A stretch of DNA of 64,000 nucleotides from Haloterrigena gelatinilytica (lineage in GTDB: Archaea; Halobacteriota; Halobacteria; Halobacteriales; Natrialbaceae): positions 2,914,001-2,978,000 of the forward strand of contig NZ_JABUQZ010000001.1 in NCBI RefSeq assembly GCF_013342145.1, given 5' to 3'. How positions within the stretch are numbered: the first letter of the stretch is position 1; each line of letters begins with the position of its first letter. Positions 3 through 29,487 of the stretch are shown in pieces. Below the pieces are notes generated by a model. The model made no database searches. It saw only the letters and a program-made list of their open reading frames with translations, and had not been told where the DNA came from. The translations under genes were made by a program, and so were the position numbers.

Positions 3-265
3 CACTGTCGATCCAAGGACGTCGACTTCACCGTCGATCGGCTCTACCACGCCGAGGACGGCGACCGGAGCTCGGGACAGGGCTACGGCCTGACGCCCGT
101 CCAGCGGAAGACGCTCGTCACCGCTACGAACGCGGCTACTTCGAGGATCCGCGGGATTCCTCGGTCGAGGACCTCGCGGACGCGCTCGGCGTCTCCTCGT
201 CGGCCGTCAGCGGTCGCCTCCGCCGCGGGTTGAAGGCACTGATAGAGAACTCGCTCGTCCGATGA
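3..265 (+). pseudogene. HTH-10 (bacterio-opsin activator type) regulator, C-terminal part, frameshifted
   Basis: This is the 3' end of a haloarchaeal HTH-10 regulator; the 5' part lies outside the window. Frame 3 reads VDRLYHAEDGDRSSGQGYGL then TPVQRKTLVT. About base 124 the family pattern (TAYERGYF) continues one base out of phase: YERGYFEDPRDSSVEDLAD, then LGVSSSAVSGRLRRGLKAL, to a TGA at 263-265. The two pieces join with one missing base in the Ala codon after LVT, so a single-base deletion splits the DNA-binding helix-turn-helix. If real, the regulator lacks its recognition helix. If a read error, this is an ordinary intact C-terminus. The identity of the domain is firm; the cause of the break is not known. 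Confidence 0.8.
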
Positions 266-23448: not shown

Positions 23449-24207
23449 TTACAGTTCGATCGCCATCATCACCTCGTCGATGTACTCGTCCTCGAGTTTG
23501 TAGTGGTCCTCGCGGACGGCCTCGACGATCCATCCCCGATCCTCGAAGAACTCGATCGCGGCCTCGTTGCTCGAGGGGACGCTCTGGTAGACCTTCTCGT
23601 GGCCCTGCGACCGCGCCCACTCGAGGGCGCGGTCGAGCAACTGGCTCCCGACGCCCAGCCCGCGGTACTCCTCCAGGACGCCGACCGTGAGTTCGGCGGT
23701 GTGGGACAGCTTCTCGAGGTTCGGCAGGTGGAGGTGAGCCCAGCCGACGACCTCGTTGTCGACGGTGGCGACGAAGAACAGTCGGGACTCGTACTCGTTG
23801 CGCCGCAGGAGGACGTTCTCGTGGTCGAGTTCGTCCGCGACCGTCTCGGCCTCGATGTAGGTCATCTCCTCGACGACCTGTCGCATCGCGCCGACGATCC
23901 CCGAGAGATCCTCCTGTCTGGCCGCCCTGATCGTGACGTCGACGTCGTCGGTCGTGAACTCCTCCCGTTCCTCCTCGACGTCGATGGCGATGCGCAACGT
24001 GCCGTCGTCCTCCTCGAGGTAGCCGTCGCGCTTGAGGATCGCCACGTTGTGTCTGAACGCGCGCGTATACTGCGGGTCGCCGGGCGGATCGTCCGGGAAC
24101 AGTTCCGAACGGACCCGATCCCGGTCGACCGCGCCGTGGGCCTCCACGTACTCGTAAATACTCGTTCGGTCGGTATCCTCGATCTCCGCTGGTTCTGCCA
24201 TCGACAT
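23449..24207 (-). CDS. winged-helix + GNAT acetyltransferase fusion
   Basis: A 252-residue two-domain protein. Residues about 10-80 look like a winged helix (SIYEYVEAHGAVDRDRVRSE, AFRHNVAILKRDGYLEEDDG). Residues about 90-250 form a GNAT fold with the acetyl-CoA loop VGVLEEYRGLGVGSQLLDRA and FFEDRGW. It could be a DNA-binding acetyltransferase or a regulator sensing acetyl-CoA. Start ATG 24207 or 24201. It is divergent from the siroheme decarboxylase gene across 151 bp. Confidence 0.85.
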   Translation of the reverse strand: MSMAEPAEIEDTDRTSIYEYVEAHGAVDRDRVRSELFPDDPPGDPQYTRAFRHNVAILKRDGYLEEDDGTLRIAIDVEEEREEFTTDDVDVTIRAARQEDLSGIVGAMRQVVEEMTYIEAETVADELDHENVLLRRNEYESRLFFVATVDNEVVGWAHLHLPNLEKLSHTAELTVGVLEEYRGLGVGSQLLDRALEWARSQGHEKVYQSVPSSNEAAIEFFEDRGWIVEAVREDHYKLEDEYIDEVMMAIEL

Positions 24208-24336
24208 GCTTAATGCTAACGTCTACCACCATCATAATCGTTTCAATACTCACGAAGTAGAAACAGTCGCCCGGAAGAGGACGAACGGCCGCGACCGGAG
24301 CGCTCGCTCGTCGTTCGGACCCGAAAGCAATACGGT

Positions 24337-24357
24337 GCCGTTCTCCCTAGGGACGGC
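24337..24357. promoter_or_regulatory. dyad just before the ahbAB start codon
   Basis: GCCGT (24337-24341) and ACGGC (24353-24357) flank the 8-bp palindrome CCCTAGGG (24345-24352), ending 1 bp before ATG 24359. It may be an operator or a leader hairpin. The function is a guess. Confidence 0.35.
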
Positions 24358-24358
24358 A

Positions 24359-25453
24359 ATGAGCACCCTCTCGGGGGACTGGCGCGAGGGGATCGACGAC
24401 GTCGACGCGGCGATCATCGACGGCTACCAGAGCGGCGTCCCCGTCGAGGAGCGGCCCTTCCGATCGATCGGCGCTGCGCTGGGTATCGGCGAGGGCGAGG
24501 CGCTCGAGCGCGTGACGCGCCTCCACGAGTCGGGGATCGTCCGGCGGTTCGGCGCCGTTCTCAACCCGCCGGTGATCGGGTCGTCGACCCTCGCCGCCGT
24601 GCAGGCACCCGCGGATCGGTTCGACGAGATCGCGAGCGTCGTCAACGAGTACCGGCAGGTCAACCACAACTACGCCCGCGATCACGAGTGGAACATGTGG
24701 TTCGTCGTCACCGCCGGTTCGCGGGCCCGACGCGACGAGATCCTCGAAGAAATCGAGGCGCGCACGGGCTGTCCCGTGCTCAACCTGCCGATGCTGACCG
24801 ACTACTACATCGACCTCGAGTTTCCCGTCGTCAACGGCGATCGTTTCGCGCGGGAGAGCGCGGAACCGCGTTCCGCGAAACGGGCGACCAGTGATACCGT
24901 GGGCCGCAAATCGCTCGAGGAGCGACTGGACTCCTCCGCGACGCGGATCAGCGAGGAAGCGACGAGCGACCTCTCCGCGCTCGAGGCCGAACTGCTGCTC
25001 GCGATCCAGGACGGGTTCCCGCTGTCGGCGACGCCGTACCGCGACATCGCCGCCGAGATCGGATACGCCGTCGGAGACGTGCTCGAGGGCGTCGAACGGC
25101 TCGTCGAAACGGGCTGTATCAAGCGGATCGGCTGCGTGATCAACCACGTCGTCACGGGGTTCGACGCGAACTGCATGGTCGTCTGGGACGTCCCGGACGA
25201 CCGGCTCGACGAGTGGGGCGAACGCGCGGGCGGACTGCCGTACGTCACGCTCTGCTATCACCGACCCCGTCGGCCCGACCGGGAGTGGCCGTACAACCTG
25301 TTCACGATGATCCACGGTCGCGATTCGGACGCCGTCGACGCGAAGATCGACGAACTGGCCGCGGAGTACCTCCCCGTCGAGCACGAACGCCTCTACTCGA
25401 CCGAGACGCTGAAACAGACCGGCGCGCGCTACGAGGATCTGGTCGGGCGGTGA
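24359..25453 (+). CDS. ahbAB: fused AhbA-AhbB siroheme decarboxylase (Lrp/AsnC-like)
   Basis: A 364-residue protein made of two Lrp/AsnC-like halves, each a helix-turn-helix plus a RAM-like domain. The first half (about 10-160) carries QVNHNYARDHEWNMWFVVTA. The second (about 200-360) carries VTLCYHRPRRPDREWPYNLF. These HNYxRxHxxNxWF and YHRxRRxxWPYNLF signatures mark the NirDLGH/AhbAB siroheme decarboxylases, which make 12,18-didecarboxysiroheme for the alternative haem or haem d1 route. Bacterial and methanogen forms are usually two proteins. The linker (about 162-195) contains a coding palindrome. It may be annotated elsewhere as an AsnC regulator, but the signatures favour the enzyme. Confidence 0.8.
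   Translation: MSTLSGDWREGIDDVDAAIIDGYQSGVPVEERPFRSIGAALGIGEGEALERVTRLHESGIVRRFGAVLNPPVIGSSTLAAVQAPADRFDEIASVVNEYRQVNHNYARDHEWNMWFVVTAGSRARRDEILEEIEARTGCPVLNLPMLTDYYIDLEFPVVNGDRFARESAEPRSAKRATSDTVGRKSLEERLDSSATRISEEATSDLSALEAELLLAIQDGFPLSATPYRDIAAEIGYAVGDVLEGVERLVETGCIKRIGCVINHVVTGFDANCMVVWDVPDDRLDEWGERAGGLPYVTLCYHRPRRPDREWPYNLFTMIHGRDSDAVDAKIDELAAEYLPVEHERLYSTETLKQTGARYEDLVGR
24859..24877. repeat. palindrome with 8-bp arms and 3-nt loop in the AhbAB linker
   Basis: Perfect arms CGCGGAAC and GTTCCGCG around loop CGC. It encodes part of the inter-domain linker (SAEPRSAKRAT). Its arms match the intergenic palindrome at 19163-19183 except for one extra base pair there. Confidence 0.75.
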
Positions 25454-26416: not shown

Positions 26417-26514
26417 TTGGTCGGCCATCGATCGTGGAGCGGCGACTCGTGTCGGACCCCGGCCCTCGGCTCAGCGCGTCGAATCGGTTCTCGTTACCAC
26501 TCCGGAACTCGACA

Positions 26515-26803
26515 CCCCGACTGTCGAATGAAATGCGATAGCGAGGCGAACAGTCGTTCGAGCGTGACCGCCGAACACGCGGGCCGGACCGGTCGCCGAA
26601 TGACCTGACTCGTAGCCGAGTCTCGGTCGCGGACTATTACCCCGGGTGTCGAGTGAAATCGGTGCGAGACGACCACCCCAGGTGTCGAATGAAATCGATC
26701 GCAGACTGCGACCCCACGTGTCGAGTGAAACCGGTCGTAGACTGTGACCCCACGTGTCGAATGAAATCAGTGCGGTACCACCACCCCAGGTGTCGAGTGA
26801 AAC
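26515..26803. repeat. ORB-like origin repeat array, part 1 (36-bp phased)
   Basis: Copies of the 20-bp motif CCCCAGGTGTCGAGTGAAAT lie at 26515 (degenerate), 26640, 26676, 26712, 26748 and 26784. The last five are spaced exactly 36 bp. Read on the other strand the motif is TTTCACTCGACACCTGGGG, which fits the archaeal origin recognition box pattern (TTnCAnTnGAAACnnnGGGG-like with a G-string). All copies point the same way. It lies downstream of orc1/cdc6. Confidence 0.85.
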
Positions 26804-26856
26804 GAGGGCGATTTCGCGGTGGAACGGATTTCTATCACACACTTAGGAATCTGACA

Positions 26857-27064
26857 CCCCAGGTGTCGAGTGAAATCGGTCTCGAGATTCTGGGTATCGC
26901 GCCTCCGTCGGACTCAGGGCTCGAGTCTCGGGGGTGCGTAAAACTCACTACCCCAGGCGTCGAGTGAAATCGGTCTCGAGATTCTGGGTATCGCGCCTCC
27001 GTCGGACTCAGGGCTCGAGTCTCGGGGGTGCGTAAAACTCACTACCCCAGGCGTCGAGTGAAAT
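26857..27064. repeat. ORB copies inside a 94-bp exact tandem duplication
   Basis: ORB-like copies at 26857, 26951 and 27045. The segment 26867-26960 is repeated without a mismatch as 26961-27054, each unit carrying one boxed motif with CAGGCGT in place of CAGGTGT. Exactness suggests a recent duplication or ongoing homogenisation. Confidence 0.9.
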
Positions 27065-27079
27065 CGTCGGGAGTAGTCA

Positions 27080-27423
27080 CCCCGGGTGTCGAATGAAATG
27101 TAATCCCATGATCCGAGGAGTCGAGTGTACGGAGAATCCACTACCAAAGCGTCGAGTGGGATCAGTAACCCCAGGTGTCGAGTGTAATCACTCTGTATTC
27201 CGGAACAGAGACGCTACAAACGGGGTTTTCGAATCCGTCCACCCCGGGTGTCGAGTGAAATGTGGTATCGATACACGTTCGTCGGACAGCGGTCCGCGCG
27301 GACCGACTCGCCGCACACCCCACGTGTCGAGTGAAATCTGGCCTCGAGAGTCGAGCGGTGAGTTCACGGAGAGTCGAACGTCGAGTGTACGGCGGACTCG
27401 AGACCCCAGGTGTCGAGTGAATT
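27080..27423. repeat. ORB-like origin repeat array, part 2
   Basis: Clear copies at 27080, 27169, 27242, 27318 and 27404. Degenerate ones lie at about 27111, 27143 and 27371 (core GTCGAGTG kept). All are in the same orientation as part 1. The last copy ends 18 bp before the orc1/cdc6 stop codon. No protein-like reading frame is seen in 26520-27440. Confidence 0.85.
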
Positions 27424-27441
27424 CCAATCGGACACCTACCT

Positions 27442-28695
27442 CTATTGCTGCTCGAGTTCGGAGAAGCGATCGTCGTTGTGGATAACGGCCTGAACGACGG
27501 ACGGATCCTCAAGCAGGTAGTAATAGTTCGTCACGCCGCTACTGTATCCGCGGCCGACTCGTTCGGTCCGTCCGAGAATGTCGAGGAAGACCTGCTCGTC
27601 GAGTTTATCGCTCATCCGGCGCTGCGAGAGCGTCTCGATCCCGAGGGCGCTATCCGAGGTGATGGACTTGTACATCTCGTATACTTCGCGGGTCGCGAAC
27701 TCCTCTCGATCGCTGTGTCGGTCCGCGAGTATCGACAGCGCGTAGACGGACGCCTTGATCTGCGTCGGCTGGCCCTCGAGGAGTTGCGAGAAGCGGTCGA
27801 TATCGGCCTTCTCTCGAGCGTTGCGGACGTGAATCTCGGTCACCTCGTCGGTGTCTTCGTCCTTCGCCAGTTCGCCGGCGTTTCGGAGGATGTCCAGCGC
27901 CTTTCTCGCGTCGCCGTGTTCCTGCGCGGCAAAGGCGGCGGAAAGCGGGATGACGTCGTCGGAGAGGACGCCCTCTCTGAAGGCGTCCTCCCGGTTGTAC
28001 ATGATTTCGCGGAGCTGGTTCGCGTCGTACGGCGGGAAGACGAATTCCCGGTCCTGGAGGCTGCTGAGAATCCGCTCGTCGAGCGATTCCTTAAAGGAGA
28101 TCTTGTTACTGATCGCGATGATCCCCACCTTACAGGCGTCTAACTTCCCGGCTTCCCCCGCTCGCGACAGCTGCATGAGAATCTCGTTGTCCTGGAGTTT
28201 GTCGATCTCGTCGAGGATAATGATCGCGACGTCGTAGAGCTGGTCCAGGATCGACCAGAAGCGTTCGTAGTAGACGTCGGTCGAGAGTCCGGTGACGGGG
28301 ATACTGATGCCGGTCTCTTCGGGATCGTTCAGTTCCTGTGCCAGATTGATCACGACGCGGGTCTCGGTCTTCGTCTGGGTGCAATCGATGTACGCTCGCC
28401 CCATCTCCGTCCCGTTTTCGACCGAGTACTGCTGGGCGCTCCTGGTGACGTGTTTCGCGACGAGCGACTTTCCCGTCCCCGTTTTCCCGTAGATGAGCGT
28501 GTTTCGCGGCGATTGGCCCTTCACCGCGGGATGAATGCTCGAGGCGACGTTCTGAATTTCGCTGTCTCGGCCGATGATCCGGTCCTCGTTCGGCACGAGG
28601 TCGATATCGAGAAGTTCCTTGCGGCTAAAGATCGGGTCCTCCGTCGCCCAGAAATCCTCCAGAGATCCGTTTTCGTGACCGGAGCCGTCGTCCAT
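27442..28695 (-). CDS. orc1/cdc6: Orc1/Cdc6 replication initiator
   Basis: A 417-residue AAA+ origin-binding protein. Seen: Walker A GKTGTGKS (about 70-77), Walker B IIILDEIDKL (about 157-166), sensor 1 IAISNK, arginine-rich sensor 2 GDARKALD, and a C-terminal winged helix (about 310-410, ALSILADRHSDREEFATREV, LDILGRTERVGRGYSSGVTN). It binds ORB boxes and loads the MCM helicase. ATG 28695 (MDDGSG) is favoured over GTG 28704 because a TATA element sits about 30 bp upstream. Origin-type repeats flank it on both sides. Haloarchaea carry many cdc6 paralogues, each usually tied to its own boxes. Confidence 0.95.
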   Translation of the reverse strand: MDDGSGHENGSLEDFWATEDPIFSRKELLDIDLVPNEDRIIGRDSEIQNVASSIHPAVKGQSPRNTLIYGKTGTGKSLVAKHVTRSAQQYSVENGTEMGRAYIDCTQTKTETRVVINLAQELNDPEETGISIPVTGLSTDVYYERFWSILDQLYDVAIIILDEIDKLQDNEILMQLSRAGEAGKLDACKVGIIAISNKISFKESLDERILSSLQDREFVFPPYDANQLREIMYNREDAFREGVLSDDVIPLSAAFAAQEHGDARKALDILRNAGELAKDEDTDEVTEIHVRNAREKADIDRFSQLLEGQPTQIKASVYALSILADRHSDREEFATREVYEMYKSITSDSALGIETLSQRRMSDKLDEQVFLDILGRTERVGRGYSSGVTNYYYLLEDPSVVQAVIHNDDRFSELEQQ

Positions 28696-28721
28696 ACACA
28701 CCACCTATCGAGGACGGTCAC

Positions 28722-28728
28722 ATATAGA
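28722..28728 (-). promoter_or_regulatory. TATA element of orc1/cdc6
   Basis: CTATATG on the minus strand, about 27-33 bp before ATG 28695, which would give a leaderless or nearly leaderless transcript. A degenerate box-like sequence (CACCGAGTGTCGGATGTA, about 28744-28761) lies just upstream and may allow autoregulation by the initiator. Confidence 0.5.
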
Positions 28729-28963
28729 CTAGTGATTGGAAGTCACCGAGTGTCGGATGTAGGTGTCGGAAATCAACGGCGACGGAGATTCTATCGAAGA
28801 TCTGCGTCGGATGGCGGTTGTCCTCGCGTCGAGTGAAACCGGAACACGGGAAACAGGGAAAGTCACCTCCCCTTTCCAGCCAGCGGATGAGAGGAACATC
28901 GAACGGAATCGCGAAAAGCTTCGAGGACGACTGCGGTGTAACGGAGGACCGTACTCGAGTAGC

Positions 28964-29311
28964 CCCACACCCCAGGTGTCGAGTGTAGATCGTCGAAAAT
29001 GCCCGGAACATGATCTGATGAGGGGTGTTAGAAATGCTGGAGGCAGTGTAGATTGCTAAATCAGGGAGTAACGGGCGAGAGCTATGGGTGAGGAGTGGGG
29101 GATCGAACGGTCCGTCCGTTCGAACAGTAGTTCGAACATGAAATAGTCCAGTACGGGTCTGGTTTCGAGCAGGGATACATAAAACCTTCTATTCTATTAT
29201 ACGATATTTGCTACTACGAAGATCTTGCCACCGGCCCCTATTCTTACTCTGGATAGATACGGTCTCTAGCACTCGCTTTCGCGCATCTACACTCGACACC
29301 TGGGGTGTGGG
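28964..29311. other. replication origin core: inverted ORB pair around AT-rich stretch
   Basis: Positions 28964-28990 and 29285-29311 are a perfect 27-bp inverted repeat containing the ORB-like motif (box at 28970-28989 and its reverse at 29286-29305). The 294 bp between them hold an AT-rich run at about 29170-29215 (AAAACCTTCTATTCTATTAT and following), suitable as the duplex-unwinding element. It lies 270-620 bp upstream of orc1/cdc6, the usual archaeal arrangement. No gene is seen in 28760-29487. Confidence 0.75.
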
Positions 29312-29330
29312 AGTATCATCAGTTATAGGA

Positions 29331-29475
29331 TAGGAATGAGGATAGTGAGGATGATGAGAGACGAATGCGGGAGGTCAGAAGTAGTCAGAAGTAGAGAGTA
29401 CGGAGGATAGGAGTAGAGAGAACGAGAGTGGATAGAGAGAACGGGAGTAGAGGAAGAGGTGAAGGGTAATGGAAA
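29331..29475. repeat. polypurine tract beside the origin
   Basis: The plus strand is about four-fifths purine over 29341-29460 by hand count, made of short AG-rich units (GAGTAGAGAGAACGAGAGTG and a close second copy GATAGAGAGAACGGGAGTAG). It lies between the outer ORB and the stop codon of the dehydrogenase gene. No reading frame looks real here. Confidence 0.75.
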
Positions 29476-29487
29476 ACCGGCGCGTCG

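Follow-up and report, generated by a model that had tools for sequence, protein, structure and literature searches.

The window, a 64,000-nucleotide stretch of Haloterrigena gelatinilytica DNA, carries an orc1/cdc6 gene on its minus strand (27442 to 28695). The gene encodes a 417-residue initiator with an intact AAA+ domain, a Cdc6 lid, and a C-terminal winged helix. It matches the Orc1/Cdc6 profile TIGR02928 (1.7e-119), with the domains Cdc6_lid and Cdc6_C, and its solved structural relatives are chains 2v1u and 2qby. About a dozen further orc1/cdc6 genes are present in the same genome. Together with an origin on its 5' side and a box array on its 3' side, the gene forms a 3.04-kb module (26449 to 29487), delimited by an empty site in another genome, G077.

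The origin consists of two inverted boxes with the tail TAGA, which we call O-type. The gene-proximal box (28968 to 28989, plus strand) lies within a 35-nt inverted repeat, and the distal box (29286 to 29307, minus strand) is inverted relative to all other boxes. Both have GGGG/CCCC at their outer ends, and between them is a putative duplex-unwinding region (28990 to 29285) with 51% AT and up to 67% AT over 60 bp, inside a region of 60+% GC. The locus has the standard haloarchaeal origin layout: an inverted ORB pair with a G-string, an AT-richer interval, and an adjoining intact Orc1/Cdc6 gene. Across 800 kb centered on this region, neither GC skew nor AT skew has an origin-like turning point, and GC skew lends no support to an active origin.

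A TATA-like element of orc1/cdc6, GTCTATATGT (28720 to 28729, minus strand), was read from the sequence and is conserved in 12 orthologs. Directly upstream of it is a degenerate promoter box (28742 to 28763, plus strand) that has an O-type tail, lacks the CCCC, and keeps its position in orthologs. This box is probably an autoregulatory operator, and we regard it as a candidate for autorepression of the gene; we found no report of such a degenerate box beside a TATA-like element in the searchable papers. A further degenerate box lies between the origin and the gene (28818 to 28839, plus strand; score, 6.5), and several orthologs have one near -144.

The array occupies 26513 to 27423, and 19 bp separate the cdc6 stop codon from the first array box. 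At least 14 one-directional, ORB-like boxes had been predicted within 0.9 kb 3' of the initiator gene; a repeat search and a 22-nt position matrix bear this out, with 14 near-identical copies of the 22-nt consensus CACCCCAGGTGTCGAGTGAAAT, all on the plus strand, in 911 bp. They start at 26513, 26638, 26674, 26710, 26746, 26782, 26855, 26949, 27043, 27078, 27167, 27240, 27316, and 27402. The repeat search placed the 14 plus-strand copies within 26504 to 27429 and found two more, one on the plus strand at 28959 and one inverted at 29277 to 29311. An additional, degenerate array box lies at 27110 to 27131 (plus strand; matrix score, 6.2), and H. salina and genome G024 have better boxes at the matching part of their arrays.

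All 16 sites at the locus, the 14 array boxes and the two origin boxes, have matrix scores of at least 30. Across about 800 kb around the locus, the 16 sites scoring at least 10 all fall within the module and one further site reaches 8; none of the 797 kb of flanking chromosome outside the module holds a site scoring at least 10. Markov shuffles of the 64 kb yield zero to two sites scoring at least 7. Because the locus sites so far exceed both the flanks and the shuffles, a chance origin of the array is excluded. The matrix was trained on the locus sites themselves, so the strict pattern CCCCNNGYGTCGARTG served as a second check: it has 16 matches in the 4.55-Mb genome, 15 at the locus (the first array box is one base off) and one on contig C3. 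The array is essentially unique in the genome. The match on C3 (77.5 kb) is a solitary strong box of the array motif (L016, about 1500 to 1516; C3:33406; score, 33) that adjoins a short unannotated stretch, far from any orc1/cdc6 gene found.

The array boxes and the inverted origin pair have an 18-bp core in common, in agreement with the original prediction that the boxes are ORB-like. The two sets differ in their tails. Among 12 genomes, whose relatedness means that these counts are not independent events, the origin-pair tail is TAGA or TAGG in 24 of 24 boxes; neither occurs in any of 111 array boxes, 70 of which end in AAAT and the others in AAAC, AATT, TAAT, and further variants. The origin boxes are also extended toward the AT-rich interval by a conserved sequence, approximately GATnnnnGAAA. 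The tail split looks like a derived feature of the window clade and of Halomicrobium plasmids, since relatives of about 70% identity carry TGTAAA-like tails at both origin and array.

Five of the array boxes, those from 26638 to 26782, follow one another in exact 36-bp steps (26638 to 26803, plus strand; four intervals), and the remaining spacings are 125, 73, 94, 94, 35, 89, 73, 76, and 86 bp. The predicted spacing is real, but the helical phasing that had been read from it is not supported. Tandem Repeats Finder recognizes a 36-bp unit in 5.0 copies with 77% matches, so that the stretch is a diverged tandem-duplicated unit. Further, over 99 spacings in 12 genomes, a 10.5-bp period is not significant (Rayleigh p of about 0.3). 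When each spacing value is counted once, none of the periods of 10, 10.5, 11, and 36 bp is significant, and the apparent 36-bp period vanishes. We accordingly rejected a helically phased initiator array, which would show a helical-turn periodicity in these spacings. A second, recent repeat is a 94-bp unit (26856 to 27043, plus strand) that occurs twice with 99% identity, each copy opening with a box; among five aligned genus members, this duplication occurs in the window genome only.

An initiator at least 90% identical to that of the window is encoded in 12 of 125 Natrialbaceae genomes, and one of about 70% identity in two more. Downstream boxes occur in every one of the 12. Three genomes of Natrinema have 5, three others 6 to 7, two 10 to 11, and the four nearest to the window 14 to 17, numbers that shift slightly with the score cutoff. 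All 111 of these array boxes have a single orientation. With box positions defined in the window alone, identity between the window and G027 is 82% in boxes versus 52% in spacers, and in closer relatives it is 96 to 97% versus 81 to 87%, so the boxes are conserved above the spacers. Relatives at about 70 to 77% identity, several of them plasmid-borne, have zero to seven downstream boxes, nearly always co-oriented (L057 has one opposite box), and additional co-oriented boxes between origin and gene. A large array is thus not obligatory, because some close relatives have five boxes and the relatives of about 70% identity have zero to four.

The module boundaries come from G077 (locus L082), which shares the flanks and has 118 bp of unrelated sequence where the module would be. 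By blastn, on which this junction rests, DNA homology stops exactly at an oxidase stop codon (window position 29487) and restarts at 26448, leaving the oxidase gene nearly adjacent to genes from the other side of the module. Since G077 shares the flanks but lacks the whole module, array, gene, and origin are gained or lost as one unit of about 3.04 kb.

We compared this arrangement with 140 other orc1/cdc6 loci from 39 genomes across the order and from paralogs in the window genome, finding motifs de novo at each. The survey covers the strongest-scoring initiator loci, a nonrandom sample, outside the window's own initiator family. An inverted upstream pair is present at 129 of the 140 loci. 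Downstream boxes of the same motif number at least one in 72 of these 129 (56%), at least two in 49, and at least three in 34, against 0.18 per scan in control flanks. The downstream position had been taken as exceptional, a view that these counts do not quite bear out; what sets the locus apart is the size of its array, not downstream boxes as such. Within the window genome, the paralogs have motifs different from the array motif, and the paralog loci L026, L030, and L032 have downstream boxes that match their own upstream motifs. At L030, three identical boxes (TTCACTGAAAACGAGG) with exact 54-bp spacing lie 3' of the gene (C1:719593-720741) and are identical to the upstream inverted pair of that locus.

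At the window locus, read in the orientation of the gene, the distal origin box is plus and every other box is minus, including those beyond the gene, and the G-string end of the boxes faces away from the AT-rich interval. Similarly, 171 of 204 downstream boxes in the survey are co-oriented with the gene-proximal origin box, and co-oriented boxes form the majority in 17 of 20 initiator clusters (70% identity; p = 0.003). Exceptions exist, such as L115 with its convergent groups, and the polarity is a strong bias rather than a law. Tandem duplication can account for orientation within an array, but less well for the agreement between unrelated initiator families.

Several other loci have unusual arrangements. 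The boxes downstream of cdc6 at L115 and L111 form two convergent groups, resembling a second origin 3' of the initiator gene. At L018 (1200 to 5000) of Natronolimnohabitans innermongolicus, cdc6 has its inverted origin pair about 3.5 kb upstream, with open reading frames of up to 338 residues in between, and the array is beside the gene; this locus offers a natural test of the need for origin and gene to adjoin.

The closest experimental precedent is oriC2D of Haloarcula hispanica, where the 722 bp that follow cdc6E hold a cluster of 11 ORBs (Wu et al. 2014, PMC3936714). It has no origin activity and could not be deleted unless oriC2 was also removed; it lowers the copy number of oriC2 plasmids, with an intermediate effect at an intermediate number of boxes, and this was interpreted as titration of Cdc6E (PMC3936714). 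Downstream ORBs were noted at many other loci in the same paper (PMC3936714) and again in a 2014 review. Like oriC2D, the window array is an intergenic cluster of the cognate ORBs of a chromosomal origin, directly downstream of the initiator gene, at similar density (11 boxes in 722 bp versus 14 in 911 bp). It differs in having more boxes and another box sequence, and the two are likened by arrangement, not by initiator orthology. The nearest look-alike of oriC2D in the survey is L221, in the family containing Halomicrobium, with 12 co-oriented downstream boxes within about 750 bp; its Orc1/Cdc6 is only 34% identical to that of the window, and it is possibly a relative of the H. hispanica locus.

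A second precedent concerns the module itself. ARS-1, carried on pFJ1 of Natrinema sp. J7, replicates autonomously (PMC5350488). The PARS-1 primers from that study match the N. gari ortholog of the module with one and zero mismatches and span exactly 2800 bp, and because they delimit this 2.8-kb ortholog, the orthologous module, including a five-box array, is a tested autonomously replicating sequence. It differs from the window module in having five array boxes rather than 14. The J7 authors predicted one ORB in the downstream region and did not describe the array (PMC5350488). Part of the J7 pFJ1 signal may be integrated plasmid.

Two more distant systems share parts of the proposed logic. 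Sinks for the initiator outside the origin are known from datA of Escherichia coli, an analogy drawn for oriC2D (PMC3936714), but datA is not beside the initiator gene, and its initiator and boxes are unrelated to those of the window. Plasmid iteron or incompatibility arrays are likewise direct repeats for the replicon's own initiator that control copy number. Iterons are usually part of the origin, whereas the window repeats lie beyond an Orc1/Cdc6 gene, with no Rep protein.

Taken with the oriC2D precedent, our best reading, at a probability of about 0.78, is that the module combines a haloarchaeal origin linked to orc1/cdc6 with a negative-control region of its own, in which the array titrates the initiator. 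The original prediction of titration or an incompatibility-like effect points the same way. The core shared with the cognate origin boxes, the near-uniqueness of the motif in the genome, and the inheritance of the module as one unit all count in its favor. Negative control was shown for oriC2D; for the window array we infer it, along with initiator binding, titration, and autorepression. Replication would start when the initiator binds the inverted pair of O-type boxes on either side of the AT-rich interval; the 14 array boxes, which we term D-type, would bind the same initiator and hold it off the origin in a datA-like manner. Box number would then set the build-up of initiator required before firing. 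Once a fork had copied the module, the number of sinks would double and re-initiation would be delayed. A plasmid that carried a further module would act as a competitor, giving incompatibility. Surplus initiator would probably repress its own gene via the weaker box beside the TATA-like element.

Alternatively, the array could be a working arm of the origin that encloses the gene. Its boxes, all pointing toward the unwinding region, would nucleate a filament or loop of initiator with a set direction, which would help in melting or in loading the helicase. On a filament as such, which was among the original predictions, the observations weigh neither way. Such an arm would fit the polarity, since the gene-side boxes, including the 14 beyond the gene, are oriented as the proximal origin box with only the distal box inverted, and since the bias recurs across the survey. 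We nevertheless consider it unlikely: the H. hispanica downstream array has no origin activity and lowers that of its origin (PMC3936714), the spacing is not helically regular, tandem duplication alone preserves orientation, and at L018 the array stays beside the gene although the origin pair is about 3.5 kb upstream. More improbable still is that the boxes are largely functionless relics, growing and contracting in number by tandem duplication of a proximal ORB. The range of 5 to 17 boxes among close relatives and the recent 94-bp duplication would be expected of relics, but their conservation above spacers, the retention of at least five boxes in all 12 genomes with a close initiator, the separation of array tails from origin tails, and the arrays of own motif in independent initiator families all argue against it. 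Least probable of all is an RNA or transcription element of the cdc6 3' end (a terminator or 3' UTR repeats) or a CRISPR-like element, as the single direction, the start 19 bp past the stop codon, and the superficially CRISPR-like 36-bp spacing might suggest: the same core is found in the origin pair, whose inverted arrangement makes RNA strandedness inapplicable, Rfam has no family match for the array, terminator-like sites show no excess there, and we rejected a CRISPR array because the spacings are irregular (35 to 125 bp), the repeats are degenerate and imperfect, and the spacers of the 36-bp stretch are homologous to one another.

Neither the tail classes nor the single orientation would be expected from simple titration. 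We tentatively propose two functional classes of box, a reading that is itself rather doubtful. O-type boxes (TGTAGA plus the extension on the side of the unwinding region) would license initiation, and D-type boxes (TGAAAT) would keep the initiator in a state unable to initiate; boxes would have to point toward the unwinding region, making the array a polar regulatory arm instead of a passive sink. The strict box split between origin and array and the orientation bias across initiator families lead to predictions by which passive titration can be told apart from a directional mechanism.

The locus is a real, large, and conserved example of an already known kind, for which oriC2D is the precedent. 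Judging from the searchable papers, which leave the full text of many subscription papers outside, four features appear to be unreported: the strict split of box classes, a polarity bias that recurs among initiator families, the module's clean boundary, and its connection with the J7 plasmid. How archaea control initiation is poorly understood, and the papers found include tests of negative control by a downstream ORB cluster in one species. A large natural array, an ortholog that works on a shuttle vector (pFJ1), and a range of 5 to 17 boxes within one clade allow a direct dose-response test of titration.

Near the module, at window positions 24206 to 25453, the alpha and beta subunits of siroheme decarboxylase (AhbA/AhbB) appear to be fused in one open reading frame, which is also found near the oxidase gene in many genomes that lack the module.
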